A stretch of 64,000 bases of DNA from Candidatus Caccopulliclostridium gallistercoris (GTDB lineage Bacteria; Bacillota; Clostridia; Christensenellales; UBA1242). The stretch lies in NCBI GenBank assembly GCA_018713725.1, contig DVOJ01000005.1, forward strand, positions 1 through 64,000, given 5' to 3'. Below, in pieces: positions 21,914 through 36,865 of this stretch. Under the pieces are notes generated by a model, which saw nothing but the letters and a program-made list of their open reading frames with translations, had not been told where the DNA came from and did not search any database. Each line of letters opens with the position of its first letter. The first letter of the stretch is position 1. The position numbers were made by a program, and so were the translations under genes.

Positions 21914-22144
21914 TTTTGGCAGTGTTTATTGATTTTGGCAGGTTTGTGATTATAAAATTTCCCCAGAAAAAACTTTTTAAAAATTTTTCTAACCTTGACA
22001 CGCTTTTGGCAGTTTTTTATCCTTATTATTGAACATAAGTTCTATAAAAAGCAAAAACGTCGACAAATTTTGTAAAAAAATAGAAAAATTTCGAAGTTTT
22101 TTACAAAAAGTTGCCAAATCATTTGATGCTAATAGTTTTGGCAA
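21914..22144 (+). promoter_or_regulatory. Array of TTTGGCA boxes, operator-like
   Basis: TTTTGGCAG occurs at 21914, 21933 and 22004. A perfect inverted pair TTGCCAAA/TTTGGCAA sits at 22111-22118 and 22137-22144, just before the HTH gene at 22174. The third box lies in the spacer of the promoter at 21995. Otherwise 21908-22173 is A+T-rich noncoding. Confidence 0.55.
21995..22023 (+). promoter_or_regulatory. Candidate promoter overlapping a TTTTGGCAG box
   Basis: TTGACA at 21995-22000, 17-bp spacer containing TTTTGGCAG, then TATCCT at 22018-22023. A protein bound to the box would block or remodel this promoter. Confidence 0.5.
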
Positions 22145-22173: not shown

Positions 22174-22713
22174 ATGAAATCTTGGATTAAAACAATTTTT
22201 ATGATTTATAGGCACTTGCCTAGAATTATCGACTCCATAGACAAAGTGTTTCAAGCTAGGGCGTTAAATGGGGGAGTAATGTCTGGCAGTGCAATAAGTT
22301 ACAACAACGTTTACAATTTATCTGAAAATTTATTAAAGCTTACTGAGAGAAAAAATGCACTTATCAATTTAAAGGTGCTAACAGATTCTATTATTAAAGG
22401 CATAGATAAAAAGCTTGCTAAAATTTTAATTTTAAGATACATAGATGGTTTTAATTTTAAAATGTTAGCCGAGCACTTCAATATTTCGGAAAGAACGGCT
22501 TATAGAAGAATAGACGAAGCCTTAACTATGGCGAGCATGGCATTAGAAGGTTTGGGCTACGATAAAGAGAAAATAGAAAAGGAATACAAAGAGGAAGCTT
22601 GGCTTTTTGATATCTCTAACGAATCCGACGCTACTGACTATATAAAAATAGATAGTAGCTATTTAAACAGCATAATTAGAACATATAAAAAACTTTCTTA
22701 TAGTGCTAACTAG
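22174..22713 (+). CDS. HTH (sigma-70 region-4-like) phage late-regulator-type protein
   Basis: Start 22174 follows a GGGGG ribosome binding site; an upstream in-frame codon at 22111 falls inside the operator region. 179 residues. A helical N-terminal half is followed by the HTH motif LAEHFNISERTAYRRIDEAL at about residues 103-122, preceded by ILILRYIDGFNFKM. This layout matches ArpU-type or sigma-like activators of late phage genes. It is the first gene of the particle module. Its stop overlaps the convergent gene by 4 nt. Confidence 0.7.
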   Translation: MKSWIKTIFMIYRHLPRIIDSIDKVFQARALNGGVMSGSAISYNNVYNLSENLLKLTERKNALINLKVLTDSIIKGIDKKLAKILILRYIDGFNFKMLAEHFNISERTAYRRIDEALTMASMALEGLGYDKEKIEKEYKEEAWLFDISNESDATDYIKIDSSYLNSIIRTYKKLSYSAN

Positions 22714-23516
22714 TCGTCTAGTTCGTAGTAGTCGCTCTTTTTTAAACGCTTGATTTTTTTAGGTTTTTCAGCACTACTTTCCTTGCTTAAAATTCTTGCC
22801 GGCTTAAAAAGAAGATATATTATAAGAAGGCAGGGAAGGCACACTGCAACAACTATTAAAATTTGCGTGGGCGAAGAAAAATTCAGCGTGCTGGGCGAGC
22901 CCGTGTTTTCTTCTTCAACAAAAATAGGTTCCGTTCTAATTTCAAGCACTTCGGTGTTTGTAGGGATTGTGGTAAGTTTATCGCAAAATAAAGAGTATAG
23001 GTAGCCTAGCTTGCTAGTAGTTCCGTTTAAATATTTGCAGTAATACCAAATGTTTGTGCATTCTGGCACCATGGTGTCGCCGTCTATTGAGCCGTAATAT
23101 ACAAGGTCTGTTTCTAAGTATGGCACGTTATCCACTATTTCAAAGGGCGAGCTATTACTAGGCACACTTCTAAGCTCTAAGCCATTTAAAGAAATTACTC
23201 TAAAAGATAGTTTTTCAGCATATGGAGTTATTGGCGTGCCTAAAACCGGGGTTACTTCACTCTTCTTTACGTAGCCGTAAAGGTCGGAATAGCGCGCGCT
23301 ATAAAAGTAGTCGCCGGCGTTATCTAATAGCTGCACAAAATAGCTGTTTGGAATGTAAAAAAGCTTAGACGTATCGTTTGGCGCAGAGTAAAAACACACA
23401 TTGTTTGTGGTAATTCTGGCGTATATAATTTCGTCCGACTGCGCTTTTGCAGGCAAGGAAAAAGAAAAACTAAAAACGTTAGCAAAAATTATAGCTAAAA
23501 TAATTAAAATTTTCAT
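22710..23516 (-). CDS. Membrane-anchored SH3-like protein
   Basis: 268 residues. A signal peptide (ILIILAIIFANVFSFSFSLP, ending AKA) is followed by two SH3-like beta segments (NNVCFYSAPNDTSKLFYIP; GLELRSVPSNSSPF) as found in cell-wall-binding SH3_3 domains. A membrane helix (ILIVVAVCLPCLLIIYLLF) and a short basic/acidic cytosolic tail (KKIKRLKKSDYYELDD) follow. It would sit on the cell surface facing the wall. It is the only minus-strand gene in the particle module. Confidence 0.75.
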   Translation of the reverse strand: MKILIILAIIFANVFSFSFSLPAKAQSDEIIYARITTNNVCFYSAPNDTSKLFYIPNSYFVQLLDNAGDYFYSARYSDLYGYVKKSEVTPVLGTPITPYAEKLSFRVISLNGLELRSVPSNSSPFEIVDNVPYLETDLVYYGSIDGDTMVPECTNIWYYCKYLNGTTSKLGYLYSLFCDKLTTIPTNTEVLEIRTEPIFVEEENTGSPSTLNFSSPTQILIVVAVCLPCLLIIYLLFKPARILSKESSAEKPKKIKRLKKSDYYELDD

Positions 23517-23613
23517 TAGTTAATTTTAAATCTTATTTGCAAAATTGGCATATATAATTTTGTCTTAAATTAGCCAACTTTGCATTTTTTTATATAACAG
23601 GAAGGGGGCTAAC

Positions 23614-25041
23614 TTGAAAGAACTTATTAAAAAATTAGATGCCGTAACAAAAGAACTTATTAAAAGATATATGAAGAACGCGCTCAGTAGGTACAATACG
23701 GGCAAAATTGTGCATGAAAAGCAGTTGCTTTTTCATAAATGCCAAAAAAGAAATAGGTGGGTGTTTGGCGGAAATAGAAGCGGCAAAACGGAGTGCGGCG
23801 CAGTGGAGTGCATTTGGCTTGCAAGGGGAATACATCCGTTTAGAAAGAATAAAAAGTGTGTTAATGGCTGGGTGGTGTCTGTATCTAGGCAAGTTCAAAG
23901 AGAAGTGGCTCAAAGTAAAATTTTGCACTATTTAAACCCAGATTGGATTGTGGACGTCTGCATGATGGAAGGCAAAAAGGAAGGGTACGAGAACGGAATA
24001 ATAGACTACATAGTTATAAAAAACGTTTCTGGCTTAAATTCTAAAATTTACTTTAAAAGTGCAGACCAAGGCAGAGAAAAGTTTCAAGGTGCAAGCCTAG
24101 ATTTTGTTTGGTTCGACGAAGAGCCGCCGGAAGATATATACTACGAGTGTTTGATGCGTGTTTTTGATAAAAAAGGGGATATTTTTGGAACAATGACGCC
24201 GCTAAAAGGCTTAACTTGGGTGTATAATGAAATCTATTTGAATGATAAGAATAACCCGGAAGTTTGGTGCGAAAATATGACGTGGGAAGATAACCCATTT
24301 TTAGATAAAAGCGAAATTGAACTTTTAACGTCAACACTTTCTGAAAGCGAGCTAGAAAGTAGAAAATATGGGAGGTTTATGAGCTCGGGCGGGCTTGTTT
24401 ATAGCGAGTTTGACGAAAATATTCACGTTATAGAACCCTTTGACGTGCCGCTAAGCTGGCAAGATAATATTTCCATAGACCCGGGGCTTAATAATCCGCT
24501 TTCTGCGCATTGGTATGCCGTGGACTACGACGGCAACGTCTACGTTATAGCAGAACACTTTGAAGCTAAAAAAGACGTTGTTTATCATGCGGAAAAAATT
24601 AAAGAGATTTCAAATAAACTAAATTGGCATAGGGCAAGTAACGGCATGATTTCCACGCTTATAGATAGTGCGGCAAGCCAAAGAACGTTAGCTGCGGAAA
24701 AGAGTGTTGTGGAGCTATTTTACGATAACGGAATACTTGCAAACCCTAAGGTAGATAAGAATTTATTTGCGGGAATTTCCAGAGTTAAAAGCTATTTAAA
24801 AAATGCGGAAGGTAAGGCAAAACTTTTTATTTTTAAAACGTGCACAAATTTAATTCGAGAATTTAAAGGCTATTTTTGGGGTAAGGGCGATAACCCCATA
24901 AAAAAGGACGACCACGCGCTAGACGAGCTTAGATACTACATAGTTAGCCGCCCAGAAACGCCTAAAAAATTAAGCGAAAAATCTGATATTCAAAAGGATA
25001 AAGAAAAATTAATAAAAAAATTATCAAAAAAATATTATTAA
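23614..25041 (+). CDS. Phage terminase large subunit
   Basis: 475 residues, TTG start after GAAGGGGG. The N-terminal ATPase has Walker A GGNRSGKT (residues 52-59) and Walker B VWFDEE (165-170), with the coupling motif GTMTPLKGL. The C-terminal RNase H-like nuclease has SIDPGLNNP (first Asp 289), LIDSAAS and the KKDDHALDELRYY ending. It packages DNA into proheads. All expected catalytic residues are present, so it looks functional. The small-subunit candidate is displaced to 28673. Confidence 0.93.
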   Translation: MKELIKKLDAVTKELIKRYMKNALSRYNTGKIVHEKQLLFHKCQKRNRWVFGGNRSGKTECGAVECIWLARGIHPFRKNKKCVNGWVVSVSRQVQREVAQSKILHYLNPDWIVDVCMMEGKKEGYENGIIDYIVIKNVSGLNSKIYFKSADQGREKFQGASLDFVWFDEEPPEDIYYECLMRVFDKKGDIFGTMTPLKGLTWVYNEIYLNDKNNPEVWCENMTWEDNPFLDKSEIELLTSTLSESELESRKYGRFMSSGGLVYSEFDENIHVIEPFDVPLSWQDNISIDPGLNNPLSAHWYAVDYDGNVYVIAEHFEAKKDVVYHAEKIKEISNKLNWHRASNGMISTLIDSAASQRTLAAEKSVVELFYDNGILANPKVDKNLFAGISRVKSYLKNAEGKAKLFIFKTCTNLIREFKGYFWGKGDNPIKKDDHALDELRYYIVSRPETPKKLSEKSDIQKDKEKLIKKLSKKYY

Positions 25042-25116
25042 TTATTTAAAATTAATTTTGTTAATTTAAATAATTGTGTTATATTTAGGTAGAATATAAA
25101 TAGTGAGGTAACTATT

Positions 25117-28100
25117 TTGAAAAAAATATTTAGCTTAATTTTAATATTTTGTATGGCTGCTACGGGGTTCGGCGTTTTAAACGCAAACTATGTGGCAAAG
25201 GCTGCTACGCCTACTGGAACGCCTATTAATAATGAAGAAGATTTTTTATCAATATCAAATTCTAGTGATAATTACTATTTAGCATCTAATATAACACTTT
25301 CTAATTATACGCCCTTAAACTTTTCTGGAACATTAAATGGAAACGGCTACACCATTTCGCTTTCCCAAGACCAAAACCAAGCAATAAACTTAACCAGAGA
25401 AAATACAAACGTTGCTGAGGTTGCCGATGGCGTTATTGAAAGCACTATCCATATTGCTAGCGAGTTAACTTCTCTTAAATATAGCTATAACTATATAGAC
25501 GAAAATAATCAAACTCACAAATCTGTATCAATAACTTTAAATAGCGGCTTAGCGGCAGGGGATAAAACCTTAGTGGATAGAATTTCTACGCTTTTCCCAA
25601 CGGAAGACTCCGCAACCCTTGCCACGCTAATACCTCAAAATAACATCACGTTAAATATTGAAGAAGTTAGAACGGCGCAGTCCGGTTCTATGAATATAGA
25701 TGATTATTTCGGCATATCAGCATATGATAACGTTAGAGTAACATTAAACGGCGCAGATAACGACGTTGCCACTTACACTATTCCTAGTTTAAATAACAAC
25801 TACGCCGGCGGAGTGACGTTTAAAATTACATATAAAGGAAATGTTTATAACTATATTTTAGATAATATTAGCCAAGACGTTAAAGATATACAAATTGAAA
25901 AAGACGGCAATCTTTTATTAGTAAGATATACAAATGAATTAAATGAATTTGAATATAGGCAACAAAGTATAGTTGACGACGATTTTACTGGTTCCACATT
26001 AGCCGCCCTTGTAAACAGTAGTAGTATAAGTTTTGGGCTTGGCAGTTTAAATTCTTTCTTTGTAGATAGTTTTATTTTTAATCAGGTAAAACCTACGGAT
26101 TATTCTAAGGTATTTGTAAATAATCTAGACCGCGCAATTAGCCTAAGCCTTCAACTTGTTGCATCTCAGGACGGCGGCGAAACTATTAGTTCAAGCGAAT
26201 TTACAACGGTGTTATCTCCGGGCGAACATGAAATTTTCTTCTACATTGGTGGAGACCCAAGTAGAGCGGACGGCATTTTTGCGGATAACACTCAGCTTCA
26301 AAACCCAAGTTTGTATAATTTTACTGTAAACAACTTAACGCAAATAGAATTTTATGTGGAAAACACTAGCACGCAGCCAGTAAGATATGCTTTTATAGTT
26401 ACAGGTACGCCAAACAGCACTGGCACGGGCTCTAATATAGAATCTAGCGAGATTGTTGGATATATTGGCGGAGAAAAAAGTGAACTAATTTCATTTACAT
26501 ATAGCTCGCTTTTTGGAAACATTACGCCAAGCTCATATAGTTTTAATACCACAGCGCCAGAAGTAACATCTATAAGCGACGCAGGCGGACTTTTCAATAG
26601 ACTTACAGGCGCAACTATTAAAAATTTAAATATAGAAAATTGGACAACCTTTACTTCTTCAATTTCAACCGTTGGGCTTCTTGCTAGCACTTCGGAAGGC
26701 GCTATAATAGAAAACGTTCAAGTTAGCGGATATATTGAAGTGGAAGCAAACACGTCTATTACGGCAGGCGGATTAATTGGTTCAAGCACGGGTACGCAAA
26801 TTAAAAACTGCTATTCTACGGCACAAATTATGGCAACAGGCACAAGCTTAACTGCTAGTCAAATTGTAGTTGGCGGCTTAGTTGGAAAAATGGTAGAAGG
26901 TGAAATTACCAACAGCTTTGTATTCTCGGAAAGTTCAGACAATCTTTTAAGGGCGGAAGCTACAAAACTAGATTTAGATTCTGAAAGTATGCCTGTATCA
27001 GACGTTATTTTGGGTGGATTAGTTGGCGTTGTATGGAAAGGAAATATTATCAACAACTTTGTTAGCGGAAATGTTTATGGTAGCACAGTAAACGATGCCG
27101 TTACACCTAAAATAGGGCTCTTATTCGGCGAACTTGGCACGGGAGTATACTTGCCAAGCGCTGGAAGCATATCAAACAATCACGCGGTTTCAAGTTCAGA
27201 GTATAATCTACTTGGAGCAACAAGCGAATATTCGCTTGTAAACTGCACGGAGCTTGAAAGTGCATCTATATTTAGAGAGCAATCCACGTTTACGTCTGGG
27301 AATCTTTGGAATTCATATTATCCTTGGGATTTTGCTTCTACTTGGCATTCAATTGCTAACAGCAACCACATTGTGCTTCAACCTTTTCAAAGTTTTACTA
27401 TCACGCTTGCGCCTTCTAACGATGAGCCATCAAGCCATGTTATTGCAAGCTTAGAGGCCGAAAGTTTAGGGGAGAATAACACCATTAGATATGGTGACAC
27501 GGTAACAATTACTGCTAGCATTAAAGAAGGCGAAGAGCTTTTATATAGGGTTTCTGCAATTCAAAAAGACGGCGTTAATTTAAATTTTGAAGAAGAGAAG
27601 GACGAAGCCGGTAACGTTTTAAGTGTTAAAGTAACGTTTGAAATGACGGCAGCAACGTCTGGGCTCTATAACATTTTAACAGAAGCCATTAATCATACTC
27701 TTATAATAGAAAGCGCAGATGCAGCTCAGGGTGGCGTTAAAATTAAGGGCGCACAAAGAGACCTTGAAAGCATTGAAATTTCCATTTCAAACGACGGTGT
27801 TTACGAATTTGAAGCTGTTCCAGCCACAGATTATGGCTTTGTAGAATGGGTTTGGGTAACCATTGTAGATGGGCAAGAAGTTCTAACAACTGCAAGGCTT
27901 GGTCAGTACGAGGAAGGCATGGAAGATACTAGAAACCAAGCAAGGCAATCTGTTGCCGTAAGGTTTACGAGTGAAAACTTAGGCAATTCTTATCTATATG
28001 TTCCATCGCCTACGGAAATGAACCAAACTTACACTTTAAGGGCAATATTCACAAGCCAGATTTGCAGCATGACAGTAAGAACGTCTTTAAGTACGGAAAA

Positions 28101-28497
28101 CTGTGCAACCATATACATCAATGAAGTGCCATACGATTTTACAGAAGAAAATAGCTATATTTTCCAAGGCGCAATTTCTCGTGATGCAGACGTTGTAATA
28201 AGAATAGAAGTAAGAGATGGCTATGAATTCTTAGGTTGGCAAGCGGGCAACACGTCAGACCCTATTGAAAACTTTTTAAGAGATTCCGAAGCGTCAGACG
28301 AAGAAATAACTTTTAGAACGTCTAATCAAGAATTTTTACTTATTGCTAACATAGAAAAATCAGAAAGCGCGGCATCAGACCTAACATGGCTTTGGTGGAC
28401 ACTTGGCGGCATAGGCGAAGCTGCAATAATAGGTGTAGCCATTTGGCTAATAGTAAGAAGGTCCAGAAGGTCAAGCTTCATGAGCGACTATTATTAG
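25117..28497 (+). CDS. Large secreted, membrane-anchored repeat protein
   Basis: 1126 residues, TTG start with GTGAGG before it. Signal peptide MKKIFSLILIFCMAATGFGV to about residue 30 (AKA). Residues 530-690 contain GLUG-like beta-helix repeats (VGLLASTSEGAIIENVQVSG, AGGLIGSSTGTQIKNCYS, VGGLVGKMVEGEITNSF, LGGLVGVVWKGNIINNF). The later part carries InlB-B-like TLIIESADAAQGG and YEFLGWQAG segments. A C-terminal membrane helix (LGGIGEAAIIGVAIWLIV) and an Arg-rich tail anchor it. It lies between terminase and portal genes, which is unusual for a virion operon. Confidence 0.85.
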   Translation: MKKIFSLILIFCMAATGFGVLNANYVAKAATPTGTPINNEEDFLSISNSSDNYYLASNITLSNYTPLNFSGTLNGNGYTISLSQDQNQAINLTRENTNVAEVADGVIESTIHIASELTSLKYSYNYIDENNQTHKSVSITLNSGLAAGDKTLVDRISTLFPTEDSATLATLIPQNNITLNIEEVRTAQSGSMNIDDYFGISAYDNVRVTLNGADNDVATYTIPSLNNNYAGGVTFKITYKGNVYNYILDNISQDVKDIQIEKDGNLLLVRYTNELNEFEYRQQSIVDDDFTGSTLAALVNSSSISFGLGSLNSFFVDSFIFNQVKPTDYSKVFVNNLDRAISLSLQLVASQDGGETISSSEFTTVLSPGEHEIFFYIGGDPSRADGIFADNTQLQNPSLYNFTVNNLTQIEFYVENTSTQPVRYAFIVTGTPNSTGTGSNIESSEIVGYIGGEKSELISFTYSSLFGNITPSSYSFNTTAPEVTSISDAGGLFNRLTGATIKNLNIENWTTFTSSISTVGLLASTSEGAIIENVQVSGYIEVEANTSITAGGLIGSSTGTQIKNCYSTAQIMATGTSLTASQIVVGGLVGKMVEGEITNSFVFSESSDNLLRAEATKLDLDSESMPVSDVILGGLVGVVWKGNIINNFVSGNVYGSTVNDAVTPKIGLLFGELGTGVYLPSAGSISNNHAVSSSEYNLLGATSEYSLVNCTELESASIFREQSTFTSGNLWNSYYPWDFASTWHSIANSNHIVLQPFQSFTITLAPSNDEPSSHVIASLEAESLGENNTIRYGDTVTITASIKEGEELLYRVSAIQKDGVNLNFEEEKDEAGNVLSVKVTFEMTAATSGLYNILTEAINHTLIIESADAAQGGVKIKGAQRDLESIEISISNDGVYEFEAVPATDYGFVEWVWVTIVDGQEVLTTARLGQYEEGMEDTRNQARQSVAVRFTSENLGNSYLYVPSPTEMNQTYTLRAIFTSQICSMTVRTSLSTENCATIYINEVPYDFTEENSYIFQGAISRDADVVIRIEVRDGYEFLGWQAGNTSDPIENFLRDSEASDEEITFRTSNQEFLLIANIEKSESAASDLTWLWWTLGGIGEAAIIGVAIWLIVRRSRRSSFMSDYY

Positions 28498-28513
28498 GTG
28501 GCAACAAAATTCA

Positions 28514-28548
28514 AAAAAGGCGCAGAGCTTAGCTCTGACGCCTTTTAA
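28514..28548 (+). terminator. Terminator after the repeat protein
   Basis: AAAAGGCG..AGAGC-TTA-GCTCT..CGCCTTTT stem with a short T run. Confidence 0.8.
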
Positions 28549-28617
28549 TTAAAAATAAAACTATTTTGTCAGTATTATTTGAATTCTTTTAAGTTATAAA
28601 ATAAAATTAGGGTAATT

Positions 28618-28654
28618 AAAGTTATCGCGGGAATGCTCCGGCGGTAACTTTTTT
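28618..28654 (+). terminator. Hairpin with T tract before the packaging genes
   Basis: AAAGTTATCGC and GCGGTAACTTT pair (one wobble), followed by TTTTTT. It ends 18 nt before the gene at 28673 and could act as an attenuator for the downstream capsid genes. Confidence 0.6.
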
Positions 28655-28672
28655 AATTTAAGAAGGTTTAAT

Positions 28673-28963
28673 ATGGAGGAATTTAACGAGAAAAAATTAA
28701 AAAAGGCAATTATTAAACGCGCTCTGGGTTACGACGCCGACGAAGTGGTGGAAGAGTATTCTTACGACGAGGAAGGCAAACCTAAACTTTCTAAAAAACG
28801 TGTTACTAAAAAACACTATGCGCCAGATATCTCTGCTATGAAAATTTTAATTGAACGCTATGGCAATTTAAGTAGGGAAGAAATTGAACTTATGTCGGAC
28901 GAAGAGCTAAGGGCAGAGCGCAACAGGCTTATTAAACTGCTTGAAGAGGAGGATTATGGTTAG
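28673..28963 (+). CDS. Small packaging-associated protein, possible terminase small subunit
   Basis: 96 residues, strongly charged and helical. The pattern KKAIIKRALGYDADEVVEEY, then KKRVTKKHYAPDISAMKIL, resembles small proteins found beside phage terminases in Clostridia, which may be small terminase subunits. AAGAAGG precedes ATG. It overlaps the next gene by 8 nt. Assignment rests on gene context and resemblance. Confidence 0.6.
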   Translation: MEEFNEKKLKKAIIKRALGYDADEVVEEYSYDEEGKPKLSKKRVTKKHYAPDISAMKILIERYGNLSREEIELMSDEELRAERNRLIKLLEEEDYG

Positions 28964-29165
28964 AGAAATTTCCTACAAGGCAACCTGCGATATGCTAGGT
29001 TGCAAAAACGAGGCTAAATATTGTTTGTTTACCAAAAAACGTTTTAGCCCAAAAATTCACTTTTGTGAAAGCTGTAAAAAAGGGCTTTATGAAGAACTTG
29101 GAAAAAGCATAGTTCCAAGAAGCTTAGACGCCCCGTATTCACCTAAAAGGTTAAGTAAATTTTAA
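28956..29165 (+). CDS. Small zinc-finger-like protein
   Basis: GAGGAGG supports ATG 28956 over 28941, giving 69 residues. MLGCKNEAKYCLF and HFCESCKKGLYEELG supply four cysteines and a histidine in a zinc-binding layout. The C-terminus is basic. It sits between the putative small terminase gene and the portal gene, suggesting a packaging-linked role, but no family is recognised. Confidence 0.65.
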   Translation: MVREISYKATCDMLGCKNEAKYCLFTKKRFSPKIHFCESCKKGLYEELGKSIVPRSLDAPYSPKRLSKF

Positions 29166-29175
29166 AGGAGAAATT

Positions 29176-31017
29176 ATGAAAGTTGAAGAAAAATTAGTAA
29201 ATGAAGTAGTTGAAGACTTCAAAAAAAGACAGGAAGAAAAGAGAAGCTTTGAAGCTCAGTGGCAATTAAACATGAACTTTGTTATGGGTAATCAGTACTG
29301 TGGAATTGGCTATAACGGAGAAATTACAGACTTTGAAAAACAATTTTTTTGGCAGGAACATGAAGTTTACAATCATATAGCGCCGCTTATTGAAAGAAGG
29401 CTCGCTAAGCTCCAACGTGTTCGCCCAACTATGACGGTTGTTCCATCTTCTGGCGACGAAAAGGATATTAAAACGGCTAAAATTTCAAAAAAGATTGTAA
29501 ATTCCATATATAACAAGTTAAACGTGTACAACGTTATAACGGAAGCTACAAAATGGAGCGAAATTTGCGGAACGGCGTTTTATAAAGTTATTTGGAATAG
29601 CGCAAAAGGCGCTACACTTGTAAATGATAAAAACGGAAAGGCTATAAAAAGTGGCGACGTGGAAATTACCGCGGTTTCGCCCTTTGAAATTTATCCGGAA
29701 AGCGTGAACTGCTCTAACATTGAAGATTGCAGAAGCATAATTCACGCAAAGGCGTACCATGTAGATGAAATCAAGAATAAGTGGGGCGTAGACGTTAAAG
29801 GGGAAACTTTAAACGTGTTCTCGCTAGACGGCGTTTCAAGAAATATGGGCGGGCTTGGCTATAACTCTAACGTAAATAAGGTTATATCTTCGGCAAGAGA
29901 TAACTACGCAATAGTTATAGAGCGCTACGAAGCTCCGACCATTAAGTATCCAAACGGAAGGCTTATAATAGTTGCTGGCGACAAACTTTTACACGTGGGC
30001 GAGCTTCCTTTTATAAACGGCGAAGACGGCAAACGCGGTTTTCCGTTTATAAGACAAGTAGCGTCAGACCAAACGGGTAGCTTTTGGGGTACAAGTGTTG
30101 TGGAGAGAGTTATTCCGCTTCAACGCTCGTATAACGCAATCAAAAATAGAAAACATGAGTTTTTGAACAGGCTTTCTATGGGCGTATTAACCGTAGAAGA
30201 CGGCTCTGTGGACACGGAAAACTTGGAAGAAGAAGGCTTGTGTCCGGGCAAAGTGCTTGTGTATAGGCAAGGTTCATCTGCACCAAGATATTTGAGCACA
30301 GGCAGCGTGCCATTAGATTTTACCTATGAAGAAGAAAAACTTTTGAATGAAATTTCCTTGGTTAGCGGAACATCGGACATACTTAACGATAGTACGGTAA
30401 CAAACAGCCTTTCTGGAACTGCACTTCAACTTTTAATAGACCAAGACGAAACTAGAATTTCTGTAACGGCGGAAAATATTCGCGAAGCGTTAAGAAGAAT
30501 GGCGCAACAGGTTTTAAGGCTTTATAAACAATTTGCAACGCTTCCTAGGCTTTTAAAAGTTGTTGGAGAAAATGGAGACTTAGAAGTGCTATATTTCACA
30601 ACGTCGGATATAACTTCAGACGAAGTTGTGTTTGAAACGGAAAACGAGATAAACGAAAGCTTGGCTCAGCGTAGAAGTATGGTGTTTGAACTTTTAAATG
30701 CTGGGCTACTTCACGATGAAAACGGAAAGCTTAGCAACCGTATGAGAATTAAGGCGCTTGACCTTTTAGGTTTTGGCATTTGGGAAAATTCTCAGGATTT
30801 AAACGAACAGCACACCAAGCGCGCAAGCAAGGAAAACGCTATGCTTCTTGAAAATAGTATGCCAGAGCCATGCGAGATAGATAATCATAAGCTTCACATA
30901 GACGAGCATACGTCTTTCTATTTAGCAAACGACCTTAATGAAAAACAAAAAGAAGAGCTTTTAAAACATATAAGAAAACACAAACAATTTATTAGTTTAA
31001 TGGGAGAAGAAAATTAA
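29176..31017 (+). CDS. Phage portal protein (P22-like)
   Basis: 613 residues, the size of podovirus portals. N-terminal DFKKRQEEKRSFEAQWQLNM, then YNHIAPLIERRLAKLQRVRP and VVPSSGDEKDIKTAKI are typical of P22-like portal families. Later IPLQRSYNAIKNRKHEFLNR and SGTALQLLIDQDETR belong to the wing/stem region. The dodecameric portal forms the DNA entry vertex. AAAGGAG precedes ATG. It overlaps the scaffold gene by 1 nt (TAATG). Confidence 0.88.
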   Translation: MKVEEKLVNEVVEDFKKRQEEKRSFEAQWQLNMNFVMGNQYCGIGYNGEITDFEKQFFWQEHEVYNHIAPLIERRLAKLQRVRPTMTVVPSSGDEKDIKTAKISKKIVNSIYNKLNVYNVITEATKWSEICGTAFYKVIWNSAKGATLVNDKNGKAIKSGDVEITAVSPFEIYPESVNCSNIEDCRSIIHAKAYHVDEIKNKWGVDVKGETLNVFSLDGVSRNMGGLGYNSNVNKVISSARDNYAIVIERYEAPTIKYPNGRLIIVAGDKLLHVGELPFINGEDGKRGFPFIRQVASDQTGSFWGTSVVERVIPLQRSYNAIKNRKHEFLNRLSMGVLTVEDGSVDTENLEEEGLCPGKVLVYRQGSSAPRYLSTGSVPLDFTYEEEKLLNEISLVSGTSDILNDSTVTNSLSGTALQLLIDQDETRISVTAENIREALRRMAQQVLRLYKQFATLPRLLKVVGENGDLEVLYFTTSDITSDEVVFETENEINESLAQRRSMVFELLNAGLLHDENGKLSNRMRIKALDLLGFGIWENSQDLNEQHTKRASKENAMLLENSMPEPCEIDNHKLHIDEHTSFYLANDLNEKQKEELLKHIRKHKQFISLMGEEN

Positions 31018-31616
31018 TGGAAGAAGAAGTAGTTAGGGAACAACCCAAAGTTGAAGGCGAAGTGCAAGATAGTTTAAATAGCTTGGAAACACCTGAAACT
31101 AGCGGCTCCCTTGGTAAATTTAAAGACGCGGAAAGTTTACTTGCAGCCTATAACAATTTGCAGGCGGAGTTTACTAAGAAGTGCCAAAAACTAAGTGCCT
31201 TGGAAAAAGAAAATAATAAAATTGTGTACACAGAAGAAGATTGGAATAAACGCGTAGCCAGCTTCTTAGAAAAAAATCCAGAGGCAAAAAAGTATTCTAG
31301 AGAAATTTCCGAAGCAATTTTAAATAATGAAGATTTAAAAAGCAAGGAAAACGCTTTAGAACTAGCATGGTCCGGCATAGCCATGAAAAATTATGTTGAA
31401 CCTGAAAAACTAGCTAAGGATAAAACCTTTTTAAATTCTTATATTTTTAACAATGAAGAAATTAAAAAACAAGTTTTAGAAAGCTATTTAAAGGAGCTAA
31501 AAACTGCCCCAGAAGTTATTTCAGGTTCTAGCGGTTTAAGCCCTTCTTCTAAGGAAGAGTTTACGCCCAAAAGTTTAAGTGATGCCAAAAAATATGTAGA
31601 GAAATTTTTTAAATAG
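31017..31616 (+). CDS. Putative capsid scaffolding protein
   Basis: 199 residues, acidic, helical and rich in Glu/Lys. The central LGKFKDAESLLAAYNNLQAE is typical of scaffold proteins of clostridial phages, followed by a coiled-coil-like FTKKCQKLSALEKENNK. The C-terminus KSLSDAKKYVEKFFK is basic and amphipathic, as expected for coat binding. It lies between portal and coat genes, the canonical position. Confidence 0.8.
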   Translation: MEEEVVREQPKVEGEVQDSLNSLETPETSGSLGKFKDAESLLAAYNNLQAEFTKKCQKLSALEKENNKIVYTEEDWNKRVASFLEKNPEAKKYSREISEAILNNEDLKSKENALELAWSGIAMKNYVEPEKLAKDKTFLNSYIFNNEEIKKQVLESYLKELKTAPEVISGSSGLSPSSKEEFTPKSLSDAKKYVEKFFK

Positions 31617-31625
31617 GAGAAAATT

Positions 31626-32861
31626 ATGGTATCAATTTCAAGTGCCAACGAAGCGTTAAAAAGCGTGTATTTAGGCGTTGTGGCAAATCAGCTTAACGTG
31701 AACGCAAACCCACTTCTTGGCAAAATTAAACAATCATCACAAGACGTTTGGGGTAAAGAAATTATTAAACTTGCGCCTTACGGCATAAACGGCGGCATTG
31801 GTGCTGGCGATGAAACAGACCCACTTCCAAAGGCAGCAGGAAATAATTACGTACAATTCAAAACGTCATTAAAAAACCTTTACGGAAGAATTGAAATTTC
31901 CGATAAGGCAATTAGAGCTTCTGCAAATAATGCGGGCGCTTTTGTAAACCTTTTAAACGATGAAATGGAAGGTTTAATTAAGGCTAGCAGCTTTAATCTT
32001 GGAAGAATGCTCTATGGAGATGGAACAGGTCTTCTTGGAACAGTAACAAAGGCATATTCAACAAGCGAAAAATATCTTCAAATGGACGACGTAAGAAACT
32101 TCATAGAAGGTATGGTTGTAGATATTTACAATGCAGATAGCAAAATTGAAGGTGCTAGCGGTTACAGAGTAACTTACGTAGATAGAGCAAATAAGCGTAT
32201 ATATCTTAATTTTGAATCATCTTTTAGTACAACTATTGCAGCTGATTCTAAGGTATACGTTCAAAATTCTAAGGACTACGAAATTACAGGTCTTGGCGCA
32301 ATATTTGGCTCTGGCACAACACTTTACGGCTTAACAAAGAGCGAATATCCTTGGCTTAACCCTTACGTTTCTACAACTTCTGCTGAAATTTCCGACGTTT
32401 TAATTCAAGACGCCATAGATTTCTTAGAGCAGGCTAGTGGAAGCGAAGTTAACTTCATCTCTTGCTCTACAAAAGTTAGAAGAGCATATCAAGACTACTT
32501 AACAAAGTTTAGAAGAAATATAGACGTTTGCGAACTTGCTGGCGGCTATAAAGCTATTACTTACAACGGCATTCCAGTAGTGGCAGACCGTTTTGTAGAA
32601 GATGGCACAATGTACCTTTTAAACACAAACGATTTCACTCTTCATCAACTTTGCGATTGGAAGTGGCTTGAAGGTGACGACGGCAAGGTTATTAAACAAA
32701 ATGCCGGCTATCCAACATATTCCGCAACCTTAGTTAAATATGCAGACCTTATCTGCGACAGACCAAACGGTCAAGCTAAAATCTCTAACATTTCAGCTAC
32801 TGTTTCTAGTCCGTTTAGCGATATTGTTACTGCTATTGAAGAGGCTCACGTTACAGAGTAA
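31626..32861 (+). CDS. Phage major capsid (coat) protein
   Basis: 411 residues. It starts with SISSANEALKSVYLGVVANQ, then GRIEISDKAIRASANNAGAF, and ends with Q-AGYPTYSATLVKYADLICDRPNG, typical of HK97-fold coat proteins of podovirus type. GGAG precedes ATG. Its stop codon lies inside the outer stem of a structured element that separates it from the next gene, which could reduce readthrough into the downstream genes and keep coat in excess. Confidence 0.88.
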   Translation: MVSISSANEALKSVYLGVVANQLNVNANPLLGKIKQSSQDVWGKEIIKLAPYGINGGIGAGDETDPLPKAAGNNYVQFKTSLKNLYGRIEISDKAIRASANNAGAFVNLLNDEMEGLIKASSFNLGRMLYGDGTGLLGTVTKAYSTSEKYLQMDDVRNFIEGMVVDIYNADSKIEGASGYRVTYVDRANKRIYLNFESSFSTTIAADSKVYVQNSKDYEITGLGAIFGSGTTLYGLTKSEYPWLNPYVSTTSAEISDVLIQDAIDFLEQASGSEVNFISCSTKVRRAYQDYLTKFRRNIDVCELAGGYKAITYNGIPVVADRFVEDGTMYLLNTNDFTLHQLCDWKWLEGDDGKVIKQNAGYPTYSATLVKYADLICDRPNGQAKISNISATVSSPFSDIVTAIEEAHVTE

Positions 32862-33018
32862 GGAAGCGTCAGCCCGCGGAAAAACGTCGCGATGCGGCGT
32901 TTGCTGTCAAGCGCGCCCAAACAGTCACGTACGTCTGTGTACGCTCCTGCTTTGGCGCACTTGCCGAGCCTTGCCTCGCTCGTTTTTGCACAGGCTGAAA
33001 GATTAACCGCTTCCTTAC
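32858..33018 (+). repeat. Structured G+C-rich element overlapping the coat gene stop
   Basis: The outer stem GTAAGGAAGCG (32858-32868) pairs perfectly with CGCTTCCTTAC (33008-33018). Inside are TCAGCC/GGCTGA, AAACGTCGC/GCGGCGTTT and a long imperfect arm from about 32910 to 32989. The architecture is like the elements at 45523 and 47532. A frame across it (32740-33006) is not believed to be a gene. Confidence 0.75.
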
Positions 33019-33041
33019 CCATATAAAAAAGGAGGAGAAAA

Positions 33042-33311
33042 ATGTTAATTGAAATAAAGCATGACGTCTTTTACGTCGCAGAAAGGTTAAAGGAAATAGA
33101 TTTCAAATATTTTATCCTCTATAACACAGATAAGAAAAAATACGAAATTCATCACAGCGGGCAGTCGGACACTTATTGTCTGACTGTTCCTTATGATGAA
33201 CTCGATGCTCGTACGGTAAACTTTGTAAATCAAACTCGAGTAGAAAATCGTGATAGATTATTAAAAGAACTGGACGAAGAAAATAGAAAGAGAGGAATAT
33301 ATGAAAGTTAA
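33042..33311 (+). CDS. Small virion-module protein
   Basis: 89 residues, acidic with a basic end. IKHDVFYVAERLKEID and YFILYNTDKKKYEIHHSGQ suggest a compact alpha/beta fold, then a coiled-coil tail. Similar small proteins are common after coat genes in clostridial phages, role unknown. AGGAGG precedes ATG, and it overlaps the connector-like gene by 11 nt. Confidence 0.7.
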   Translation: MLIEIKHDVFYVAERLKEIDFKYFILYNTDKKKYEIHHSGQSDTYCLTVPYDELDARTVNFVNQTRVENRDRLLKELDEENRKRGIYES

Positions 33312-33864
33312 GGAAATTATATCGCTTGCACTTACGTTTTTAAATAAGGAAGAACTGGCTAGTTTTACTCCGTTTGGAGAAAATAGCACTGTTCCAGAAC
33401 TAGAAGCAAAAGAAATTTTAAACTTAAAAAAGTGCTTTAACCTTGTGTACAATGAAATAGCTGTTTCCTATCTGCCACTTGTAAAAAGTGAAGACGTTCT
33501 TTTTATAAACGGCGTTCTTCCATACGCAAATATTTCCAAAAACATAACGGAAGTTAGAAAGCTATACGCAAATGGCAAGAATGTACCATACACCATAGAA
33601 GAAGACGGTATTCATGCAAACATACTCTGCGCCAAGCTTACATATAACTACGTGCCGAACGAACTAGATTTTGAAGACGAAGTTTTTATGTTTGGCGGTA
33701 AACTTCAAGAAAGAGTGCTTGCCTATGGCATAGCAATGGAATACTGCTTGATTTCTGGCTTGTATGACGACGCAGAAGTTTGGGAAACAAGATTTTATTC
33801 AGGGCTTAGAGACGCCTGTTTAAAAAAGAGCGAAATCCGTATTCCTGTTAGGAGGTGGATTTAG
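33301..33864 (+). CDS. Head-tail connector-like protein (P22 gp4-like position)
   Basis: 187 residues, close to the size of P22 gp4 (166). The N-terminal half is helical (VKEIISLALTFLNKEELA, then LKKCFNLVYNEIAVSYLPL), with a small beta domain and then the helical ERVLAYGIAMEYCLISGLY segment, as in gp6/gp4-type connectors. Called by position between coat and hub genes and by fold-like features; direct homology is not proven. Confidence 0.65.
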   Translation: MKVKEIISLALTFLNKEELASFTPFGENSTVPELEAKEILNLKKCFNLVYNEIAVSYLPLVKSEDVLFINGVLPYANISKNITEVRKLYANGKNVPYTIEEDGIHANILCAKLTYNYVPNELDFEDEVFMFGGKLQERVLAYGIAMEYCLISGLYDDAEVWETRFYSGLRDACLKKSEIRIPVRRWI

Positions 33865-35369
33865 TGTTCTATTCAAATAGGGTTAAAACAAAGACTACGA
33901 AAAATTATAAAATTTCATACACAAGTTTTGCTTCTGGAATGAACACGGAAGTAGACGACAATCTTCTTCCACACAAACAAGGGAAAGTTGTATACAACTA
34001 CGAAATAAAAAATGGTGCATTAAAAACAGGCCTTGGCTTTAAAGAACTTACGCTTCCCAACACAATTCCAGACGAGTTTGGTGAAGACAGGGTTATACAA
34101 ATTTATCAAAACAAAAATATAACTAATCTCTGGCATTTCAGATATTACGACACGAACGCGCTTGAAAGAAGACACAAAGTTATGTACACTACCGCGGACG
34201 GCGACCTTTGCTATTTCGACGTATTCCACTATGTATCAAATTCCTTTAAAGTGCCGGACATTCCACTTTTCACAAGTGTGCCCGTTGCAATAAATTATAG
34301 GTTAAATGGCGAAGATTGTATGATTTTTAGCTCTCCAACCGACGATATGTTAGTTTTCACACAAAATTATCTTGCAAAAACCTATGAAGACGCACCTAAA
34401 CTTGTATCCGTTTGTATCCATTATGAAAGATTGTTTGCAATTTTGGAAGGCGAGCGCAACACACTTGTATTCAGCGCCAACCTAGACCCAACGTCTTGGG
34501 ATTACGAACTAGACGAAGCAGGCTTTATTCAAATGGTGGACGAACGTGGAAGCATGTGCGCCGTGCTATCCTTTAACGACTACGTGTACGTGTTTAGAGA
34601 TTATGGCGTGGCAAGAGTATCTGCATACGGTTCACTGGAAGATTTTAGCGTGAGCCAACTTTTTGTTTCTAGCGTAAAAATTTACGGTGGAACGGTGTGC
34701 TCTTGCGGGGATAGAATAATGTTTCTAGCCAAAGACGGCATTCATTATTTTAGCGGCTATTCCACAACAAAACTAGAACTTGGAATAGAGAACATGTTTG
34801 AAGGCTTAGAAAATGAAAACGCGTCTGCTTGTTTTCACAACGGAAAATACTATCTTGCTTGCAAGTTAAACTTTCCAGATAGCGAAGTTATTGGCTGCGA
34901 AAGCGGAAGCTTTGTAAATAACGCGCTAATTGAATACGATTTAAAATCCGGCGAAATAAACGTTTTAAGGGGAGTTGACATAAACAAAATGATTAGCCTT
35001 GAAGAAGGGGAAATCTCCAAACTTGTGGCTTGTTTTAACGGAAGTTATGCAAATAAAATGGGAGAACTTACTCACGACGGCAAAATTTTTGGAAATAGCT
35101 TAAAAAGCGTGTGGACGTCGCCAAATTCTAACCTTGGATACTCTGGCAAACAAAAGTGTATTAAGGAAATTTATTTAAAGTCGGAATACGACTGTAAAAT
35201 TAACGTTAAATCGGATTACGAAGAAAAAACTTACAATGTAAAAGGAAAATCTGGTACGCAAAGAATTAAAACTAATGTGCGCGGCGAATACGTTCAAATT
35301 AGTTTTATTACGGAAAACGCTTTGGCAGAGATATCATGTCCGGAAGTGGTGCTTTCAGTGTATGGATGA
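33864..35369 (+). CDS. Tail hub / DNA-stabilisation protein (P22 gp10-like)
   Basis: GTG 33864 is preferred because GGAGG sits 8 nt upstream; a GTG at 33855 overlaps that site. 501 residues, near the size of P22 gp10 (472). Sequence is dominated by short beta strands with periodic aromatic residues (SFASGMNTEVDDNLLP, DLCYFDVFHYVSNSF, SFNDYVYVFRDYGVARVSA), suggesting a beta-propeller hub. It overlaps the connector-like gene by 1 nt and follows it as in P22. Confidence 0.65.
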   Translation: MFYSNRVKTKTTKNYKISYTSFASGMNTEVDDNLLPHKQGKVVYNYEIKNGALKTGLGFKELTLPNTIPDEFGEDRVIQIYQNKNITNLWHFRYYDTNALERRHKVMYTTADGDLCYFDVFHYVSNSFKVPDIPLFTSVPVAINYRLNGEDCMIFSSPTDDMLVFTQNYLAKTYEDAPKLVSVCIHYERLFAILEGERNTLVFSANLDPTSWDYELDEAGFIQMVDERGSMCAVLSFNDYVYVFRDYGVARVSAYGSLEDFSVSQLFVSSVKIYGGTVCSCGDRIMFLAKDGIHYFSGYSTTKLELGIENMFEGLENENASACFHNGKYYLACKLNFPDSEVIGCESGSFVNNALIEYDLKSGEINVLRGVDINKMISLEEGEISKLVACFNGSYANKMGELTHDGKIFGNSLKSVWTSPNSNLGYSGKQKCIKEIYLKSEYDCKINVKSDYEEKTYNVKGKSGTQRIKTNVRGEYVQISFITENALAEISCPEVVLSVYG

Positions 35370-35511
35370 TTTAGAAGTCTACTATAAACTCAAACGTTTT
35401 AAACGTGTTAAATATTATGAAAATAGTCCAGAAATTTTAGAATTTCGAGCTATGCAAAAGGAGAAAAAATGTATACATACAAATTCACAGACGAACAGTC
35501 GGAAAAAATAA
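35362..35511 (+). CDS. Small basic protein overlapping the next gene
   Basis: 49 residues from ATG 35362, overlapping the hub gene end by 8 nt and the following gene by 43 nt. MDDLEVYYKLKRFKRVKYYEN and SPEILEFRAMQKEKK look like a real helical peptide. The AAAGGAG used by the next gene lies inside it. Its reality is uncertain. Confidence 0.45.
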   Translation: MDDLEVYYKLKRFKRVKYYENSPEILEFRAMQKEKKCIHTNSQTNSRKK

Positions 35512-36338
35512 AAAAACAAACTGACCTTTTTGACCAGTTTAAAAACATCGACAAAAAATATTCTTTTGATAATTCCAGTATTGCCCTAGATAGAATGGAG
35601 TACACTGCGCCTTCTCAGGAAGAAGTGGAAGAGAGTGCAAAATCCAGCCTTCAAAGTTATTTAGACCAAGGCAAGAACGATATTTTAGAAGAATATTCAA
35701 GTAAAGTTTCAAATATTGAAAATCTTCAAAACACAAACAAGGAAAATTTAACTTCACAAAAAGAAAATTTAAAGAATACCTACAAAGAGCTTAAACAAAA
35801 TGCGTCCGAAGATGCAACTAGTAGGGGGCTTGCAAGGTCTTCAATTGTGGTAAACATTCTAGACGCTTTCGACCAAGGTATGCTAGACGAATATTCAAAA
35901 CTCGACCAAGAGTATACCAAAAAGTTCCAAGAGCTTGAAGAAGAAAAGAGCCTTCTTGAAAGCCAAAAAAATAGTGCTTTAAATTCCTTTGATATTTCTT
36001 ACGCTACAAAACTTAATGAAAAAATAGAAGAGATAAACAAAGAAATTGAAGAAAAAGAGAAGGAAGTATTAGAGTACAACAATAAAATTGCTGAAAAAGA
36101 AGCCGAGTATAAGTTAGACCAGCAAAAGCAAAATCAGGAATTAATAGATTTTATAGGGAAGTATGGCTCCACAGCATTAAACAGAGTTAAAGAAGAAGAA
36201 AAATACAACGCTGCACTTTCTTATTTCTACACCCTAGATAAAAACGAAGCCTTAGCTGAACTACTTAATAACGACCAATACAAAGTAGAACTTGGCAACT
36301 ATTATTCGCAATTAGAGCGCACTCTAAGAAATAGATAA
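35469..36338 (+). CDS. Coiled-coil protein, possible tail needle or internal protein
   Basis: 289 residues, almost wholly helical with long heptad stretches (QEYTKKFQELEEEKSLLESQ, KIEEINKEIEEKEKEVLEYN). A short conserved-looking ATSRGLARSSIVVNILDA lies mid-protein, a motif type seen in some phage internal proteins. P22's needle (gp26, 233 residues, trimeric coiled coil) also follows gp10, so this may be its counterpart; that is inference from position and fold. AAAGGAG precedes ATG. Confidence 0.6.
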   Translation: MYTYKFTDEQSEKIKKQTDLFDQFKNIDKKYSFDNSSIALDRMEYTAPSQEEVEESAKSSLQSYLDQGKNDILEEYSSKVSNIENLQNTNKENLTSQKENLKNTYKELKQNASEDATSRGLARSSIVVNILDAFDQGMLDEYSKLDQEYTKKFQELEEEKSLLESQKNSALNSFDISYATKLNEKIEEINKEIEEKEKEVLEYNNKIAEKEAEYKLDQQKQNQELIDFIGKYGSTALNRVKEEEKYNAALSYFYTLDKNEALAELLNNDQYKVELGNYYSQLERTLRNR

Positions 36339-36339
36339 A

Positions 36340-36576
36340 ATGTGGCAAGATATTATAAACATAATAATAAGTAACGGTATTTTTGCCATACTTTTCGTGT
36401 CCCTTCTATTTATTCAAATTAAGGATAGCAAAAAACGCGAAGAAAAATATCAAGAAGCAATAAAAAAACTTTCTCATCATCTAGACGTTGTTGAAGATAT
36501 CAGCGAAGACGTTAAGGAGATGAAAAAAATAATAATAATTCCAAAGAAAAAAGGAAGTAAATTAAATGAAATTTAA
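36340..36576 (+). CDS. BhlA/UviB family holin-like protein
   Basis: 78 residues: one N-terminal membrane helix (IIISNGIFAILFVSLLFI), then DSKKREEKYQEAIKKLSHHL and VVEDISEDVKEMKKI, the family hallmark of BhlA/UviB. These proteins permeabilise the membrane and are encoded near phage or bacteriocin lysis genes. It begins 1 nt after the coiled-coil gene stop and overlaps the next holin by 11 nt. Confidence 0.85.
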   Translation: MWQDIINIIISNGIFAILFVSLLFIQIKDSKKREEKYQEAIKKLSHHLDVVEDISEDVKEMKKIIIIPKKKGSKLNEI

Positions 36577-36865
36577 AGACAGAATAAAATCTTACGGCTT
36601 TTGGACGGCGCTTTCCGGTGCGGTGGTAATACTAGCGCAATCTATAGCAAAATGTTTTGGTTTAGAAATAGAAGAAGAGTTAATTTCAAACATAATAATG
36701 TCTATATGTGGTGTGCTAGTTGTGTTTGGTGTTGTAACAATGCCGAATAAAAAAACAAGTTCAGACGAAAGCGAAGAAAAAACTGAAAGTGAAGAGAGCT
36801 CTGAAAGTGAAGAAAAAATAGAAGAAAAAACTATTGAAGAAAAAGAAAATATTGAAACAAAATAA
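36566..36865 (+). CDS. phiLC3-type phage holin with acidic tail
   Basis: 99 residues: KFKDRIKSYGFWTALSGAVV, two membrane helices (VVILAQSIAKCFGL and IIMSICGVLVVFGVVTMP), typical of phiLC3/Tuc2009 holins, then an acidic Ser/Glu tail of about 35 residues. No endolysin gene is found beside it. It is the last gene of the module, followed by a terminator. Confidence 0.85.
   Translation: MKFKDRIKSYGFWTALSGAVVILAQSIAKCFGLEIEEELISNIIMSICGVLVVFGVVTMPNKKTSSDESEEKTESEESSESEEKIEEKTIEEKENIETK

Follow-up and report, generated by a model that had tools for sequence, protein, structure and literature searches.

We have analyzed a 64,000-nt stretch of a Christensenellales genome (contig DVOJ01000005.1, here called the window), and within it the interval 22174-36865, where a reading of the sequence alone had placed a compact module of phage particle genes. 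Every gene named in that reading is present with an open frame. The order along the window is regulator, an SH3 membrane protein encoded on the minus strand, terminase large subunit (TerL), terminase small subunit (TerS), portal, scaffold, coat, head-tail adaptor, tail nozzle, DUF7934 and two holins. Two genes in the interval had not been taken into account, the minus-strand SH3-like gene and a GLUG-repeat gene, and neither matches a virion family in the libraries searched. The flanking core genes, ychF and dnaG-rpoD, were both identified by sequence where they had been reported, and the GC content is 37.1% in the module compared with 33-35% in the flanks. In the window, reading of the open frames and scans with profile libraries revealed neither an integrase nor a repressor, replication gene, tailspike or lysin, as had been claimed for the island.

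Except for the SH3-like gene, all the features lie on the plus strand. A gene transfer agent (GTA)-type promoter, TGGCAG-N6-TTGA-N18-TAAAAT, was found as a motif match (21917..21958) upstream of the regulator (22174..22713), which is sigma-70 region 4-like or ArpU-like (phrog_36, E = 3.9e-9; phrog_1740; phrog_248). The regulator heads the module across families, and adjoins TerL in genomes where the module is split; it is likely to be the activator of the particle genes. The neighboring gene on the opposite strand (22710..23516) keeps its position and strand across families. An alignment of 18 relatives reveals an N-terminal signal, SH3-like repeats and a C-terminal transmembrane (TM) segment with a basic tail, and thus a secreted, membrane-anchored protein. 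We regard it as a candidate conserved accessory, for which a receptor, self-protection or the control of lysis are possible roles.

TerL (23614..25041) is matched by phrog_2 (E = 1.6e-32), PF03237 and PF17289. Its Walker A and B and nuclease motifs lie at residues 52, 164, 287, 350 and 433, bearing out the claim that the catalytic residues are intact. About 60 of 65 relatives have a TerL with the ATPase motifs and two of the three nuclease motifs, the third nuclease motif being variable. Between TerL and TerS lies the gene for a GLUG-repeat cell-surface protein with a C-terminal TM segment (25117..28497; PF07581). This is restricted to some genera and evolves faster than its neighbors, with a ratio of non-synonymous to synonymous substitution (omega) of 0.15-0.24. 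It is probably a lineage-specific passenger, although it could instead be a partner of the particle system. The gene remains beside TerL even in the split genomes of genus g15.

A second GTA-type promoter, again a motif match (28567..28607), lies upstream of TerS (28673..28963). What had been called a possible TerS is indeed a terminase small subunit, with a match confined to its C-terminal part (phrog_309, positions 195-240 of the 319-position profile). In seven of seven members tested the match begins only at about position 195, and the N-terminal two thirds are gone, whereas the prophage-type comparators G803 and G714 have a TerS that is full-length or carries a helix-turn-helix. The part that has been lost would be the DNA-recognition domain. 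TerS is followed by a small four-cysteine protein (28941..29165; cluster g74, found in 54 loci and conserved in many relatives).

The portal (29176..31017) is of P22 type, as had been proposed (PF16510 P22_portal, 1.7e-23; phrog_156, 2.7e-39). The scaffold (31017..31616) is assigned by position, which is conserved in 71 of 76 loci; it evolves fast, and has no match in the profile databases searched. The claimed coat gene is equally secure, encoding the major coat protein (31626..32861; phrog_14242, 3.4e-56). It is followed by a small conserved protein (33042..33311; cluster g89 in 60 loci, with a weak match to phrog_17018) and by the head-tail adaptor (33301..33864), assigned by position and falling in a cluster (conn) present in 69 loci. 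When nozzle, adaptor, DUF7934 and coat were compared by sequence with solved structures nothing usable was obtained, but a fold search succeeded for the nozzle (33855..35369). Its AlphaFold model (pLDDT 87, pTM 0.88) was matched by Foldseek to the Pa223 tail (TM score 0.74) and VP1 (0.70), and also to GP4 and T7 gp12. The gene that had been read as a hub does therefore encode a tail protein, specifically a podovirus-type tail nozzle. Since the model matches podovirus tail nozzles, the predicted particle would be short-tailed.

The gene previously described as a coiled-coil in the needle position (35469..36338) is a conserved late gene encoding the long helical protein DUF7934 (PF25588, 1.6e-40), and its model is all helix (pLDDT 91). 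In other families and genera two or three long extra genes are found in the gap between the nozzle and the DUF7934 and holin genes (L169, L180, L166 and L087); the ones that were scanned have no match in the databases, and these genes probably encode tail-tip proteins. The module ends with the two holins that had been claimed, one BhlA-type (36340..36576; Holin_BhlA, PF10960, 3.1e-17) and one of the Phage_holin_1 family (36566..36865; PF04531, 4.8e-8; phrog_297, 1.3e-14).

We calculated omega against the species of the window's genus, for which synonymous sites are near saturation. The coat has values of 0.03-0.045, the portal 0.03-0.04 and the nozzle 0.03-0.05, compared with 0.04-0.05 for DnaG. 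For unsaturated pairs the lowest median is that of the portal (0.026) and the highest that of the scaffold (0.22). Every gene of the module has an omega well below 1, and the structural genes are thus under strong purifying selection. Relatives have open coat frames, with few stops, all at the end of the match.

The module is spread far more widely than could be seen from one window. The coat gene is present in 7/7 genomes of the window's genus and in 289 of the 309 genomes of its family, covering 42/42 genera and nearly always in a single copy. In a sample of the order it was found in 241 of 396 genomes, from 18 of 31 families. Public genomes with relatives include UBA1242 and Candidatus Borkfalkia, the latter also of the order Christensenellales; we found no paper on the phage genes of Borkfalkia. 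In a class-wide sample outside the order, matches were mostly sporadic, comprising one family (4/4) and seven others, and those examined in detail are prophage-like. Thus G1029 has two copies of the module with the same gene order, and G803 has a dnaB helicase as well as its full TerS. The identity of the coat to any phage record is below 30%. Nine viral contigs in IMG/VR (L093-L101) carry the module in the same gene order, at least one of them (L098) together with the host flank gene c24, and these contigs look like pieces of chromosome filed as viruses.

Some genomes depart from the single-copy pattern. G338 (family f31), which lies at the base of the trees, has two module copies at two sites (L170, L254) in a single-contig genome of 2.4 Mb. 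G249 (L230) has two tandem coat genes, and most members of genera g24, g31 and g33 have two coat matches per genome; a two-protein shell is possible in these cases. One genome scored as 100% complete (G071) lacks both TerL and coat. We sought the empty site via an ABC transporter gene, and no close orthologue was found. G071 has kept a fibre-like gene (L312, C1:286808) with a near-match of the promoter.

Gene order is maintained over ten families, from regulator to holins and including the opposite-strand SH3 protein. The genes for RNase J (c43) and a membrane protein (c24) flank the module in family f19 as well as in several genera of the window's family, and c24 adjoins it in Borkfalkia too. 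Retention of this flank in several lineages speaks for one ancestral chromosomal position. A complete prophage at this locus in a sister genome would have spoken against a domesticated system; there is none among those examined, and a tyrosine-recombinase-like gene lies near the module in just one of 130 stretches.

Trees were calculated for DnaG and for portal plus coat using 29 genomes from 12 families. Both require the minimum of 11 changes to account for the 12 families, the two have 14 of 26 splits in common, and in both the pair G018 and G188 is separated from the other members of the family. The distances are correlated with a Mantel r of 0.73, a value that none of 9999 permutations reached, and r is 0.60 within the family. 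At the level of the family and below, the module is inherited vertically; deeper than this, vertical inheritance is likely.

In three genera (g15, g16 and g38) the module is divided. The part containing regulator, SH3 protein and TerL is unlinked from that running from TerS to the holins, lying 23-127 kb away or on another contig. TerL in these genomes is single and intact, with 64-70% identity to that of the window, and the TerL and head-gene trees agree with r = 0.77, G126 being oddly placed. In g15 the breakpoint also divides a set of transporter genes, leaving the binding-protein gene beside TerL and the permease and ATPase genes beside TerS, which is consistent with a single rearrangement. 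The TerL part adjoins groES-groEL in G142 and c24-RNase J in G299, and because these neighbors differ several independent splits are likely. Splitting would be fatal to a selfish element, and the persistence of intact halves thus argues for a host function.

The regulator and TerS have a common promoter, TGGCAG-N6-TTGA-N17/18-TATAAT. There are 57 matches to this motif in 125 loci (2.27 Mb), of which 37 lie before TerS and 13 before the regulator, and the reversed-sequence control gives 4. The 64 kb of the window contain exactly two, at 21917 and 28567. Whole genomes have 1-8 matches each (0-1 in the control), and the motif is also present before TerS in genomes where TerS begins an unlinked operon. 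A sigma-54 promoter was rejected by eye, as the spacing does not fit. Some other matches, including that at the dnaA promoter and one with a counterpart in G071, resemble housekeeping promoters and were set aside. The dnaA gene carries a TGTCA variant of the element (G000:C16:36034, G066:C9:38538), which perhaps links particle production to the start of replication.

In four g15 genomes the motif lies 2-20 bases before the gene for a long coiled-coil protein, and one of these proteins has a phage tail-fibre C-terminus (PF21882, 2.7e-11; phrog_1396). Fibre-like proteins of the same build, with variable C-termini, are encoded by many of the family's genomes, among them those of five sister species in the window's genus, and their genes often have the motif. 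The fibre-like gene is at a third locus, unlinked from the module. One class of promoter thus ties the loci together as a regulon. In G053 a second membrane-anchored SH3-domain protein (L369:3506-4114, minus strand; PF08239, E = 2.4e-5, slightly short of the curated threshold), resembling that beside TerL, is encoded immediately upstream of the gene for the unlinked fibre. In the window's genus a gene for a protein of 208-210 amino acids comes next after that for the fibre (L365:9126-9758, L366:9706-10332); one of these proteins was scanned against Pfam, with no match.

We have compared these results with the six criteria for GTAs (PMC9662315). These include proteins derived from tailed phages that form tailed-phage-like particles, encapsidation of mostly random host DNA, full endogenization, often at several loci, a genome whose size or dispersal precludes its packaging as a whole, mostly vertical inheritance with co-diversification with the host, and delivery of the packaged DNA to other cells. 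At the level of genes, homology with phage is clear for portal, coat, TerL and nozzle. Endogenization is evident in the single chromosomal copy, the two unlinked loci in three genera and the third, fibre locus. Co-diversification is found at the family level and below, and is weak between families.

We conclude that this is very probably a host-domesticated, podovirus-like particle of GTA type, passed down with the chromosome in much of the order Christensenellales. The domesticated or GTA-like system raised in the sequence-only reading is thus upheld by its single copy throughout the family, host-congruent trees, persistence after splitting and common promoter class. The system is GTA-like and most likely a GTA, known here from its genes. 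In outline, the sigma-like regulator would fire the common promoter in some cells, whereupon coat, scaffold, portal, adaptor and nozzle would assemble into short-tailed heads. TerL, with a TerS devoid of the recognition segment, would fill these with DNA of the chromosome, showing no preference for its own genes. The holins would open the cell, and the fibre encoded elsewhere would target relatives, to which the DNA would be delivered. We lean towards a more specific proposal, of a podovirus-type GTA lineage older than the families of a large part of the Christensenellales and active in hundreds of gut species, with a sigma-like activator and a promoter of its own to run a dispersed regulon, and with a conserved SH3 membrane protein as its partner.

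Several points weigh against this interpretation. The module has no endolysin gene, and we found no report of a particle, packaged DNA or transfer in these bacteria. A search for the missing fibre elsewhere succeeded in sister species, with the fibre-like gene at an unlinked locus, and failed in the draft genome to which the window belongs, which is 97% complete. The only fibre match there (C12:37273) is an exported coiled-coil protein lacking the promoter, and was rejected. The neighbor of the sister-species fibre gene is likewise absent from the draft, so that the missing fibre may reflect an assembly gap. Deep congruence is weak, with a between-family Mantel r of 0.26 (771 of 9999 permutations as high), and between families the coat (about 60%) exceeds DnaG (about 37%) in conservation. 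Ancient transfers of the module between families are therefore possible. Taken further, the conservation of the coat together with the poor resolution of the deep nodes might indicate repeated infection by a successful phage group, mimicking vertical inheritance. We consider this very improbable given one copy per genome, trees congruent with the host within and among near families, the same flank in several lineages and the lack of integration genes, and viral contigs yielded just the nine matches, with the same gene order and in one case a host flank gene.

The alternative raised at the outset was a defective or decaying prophage left at the site. The absence from the window of integrase, repressor, replication gene, tailspike and lysin would be expected of such a remnant, but relaxed selection, stops and patchy remnants are not seen. 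The near-universal single copy in the family, purifying selection, retention after splitting into unlinked loci and the shared regulon make decay extremely improbable. Nor does the module resemble a functional prophage, for it has no integrase, replication or lysogeny genes, is almost universally present, and in some genera has its terminase unlinked from the head genes. Domestication for some other service is harder to discount, and is unlikely rather than negligible. A killing particle like PBSX, DNA-filled or empty, or one serving the host in another way, would give the same pattern of conservation, and the variability of the fibre C-termini is in keeping with strain competition; PBSX does not inject the host DNA that it packages (PMC12946183). 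Yet selection has maintained the terminase, portal and truncated TerS together with the coat, which argues that DNA packaging matters, and profile library scans found no known killing domain in the module.

A GTA of gut Clostridia, FpGTA of Faecalibacterium, was first reported in 2026. If our interpretation of the Christensenellales module is correct, an order-wide system would provide a standing route for gene flow among uncultured gut bacteria with small genomes. The three-locus regulon and its promoter offer a direct way to further parts and to the timing of particle production. The system could also explain the faecal packaging events recorded in the Christensenellaceae genera HMG11616 and QANA01, for which no operon was named (PMC12946183).

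Homologues of the coat, TerL or portal are found in Microbacterium phage Shocker, Arthrobacter phage Jasmine and phages with P22-type portals, but these are complete phages, with the low coat identity noted above. To our knowledge very few GTAs are known outside the Alphaproteobacteria. RcGTA is alphaproteobacterial and siphovirus-like, and we liken it to the present system by its description, as we do BhGTA. The RcGTA family (Rhodogtaviriformidae) shares vertical inheritance, dispersed loci, a dedicated regulator and slow evolution (PMC9662315). BhGTA (VSH-1) of the spirochaete Brachyspira has a gene cluster of its own, of 16.3 kb. Its terL is single, conserved and set apart from the structural cluster (PMC9662315), as in g15, g16 and g38 here. 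The closest known system is FpGTA, which has the same plan; we compared it by its description only. It has an operon of ~10.5 kb encoding a TerS without an obvious DNA-binding domain, TerL, portal, scaffold and coat, while the genes for fibre and lysis are in another operon, unlinked to the first; ~40 nm podovirus-like particles containing 8.4-8.9 kb of host DNA have been shown (PMC12946183, Nat Commun 2026). The reduced TerS here parallels that of FpGTA, and both are podovirus-like systems of gut Clostridia with an unlinked fibre locus, seen as particles for FpGTA and as genes here. FpGTA belongs to the Ruminococcaceae, whereas the system described here is that of the Christensenellales. We know of no other GTA with an SH3 membrane protein of this kind, and it is this conserved protein, the order-wide presence and the defined promoter that distinguish the Christensenellales system from FpGTA.

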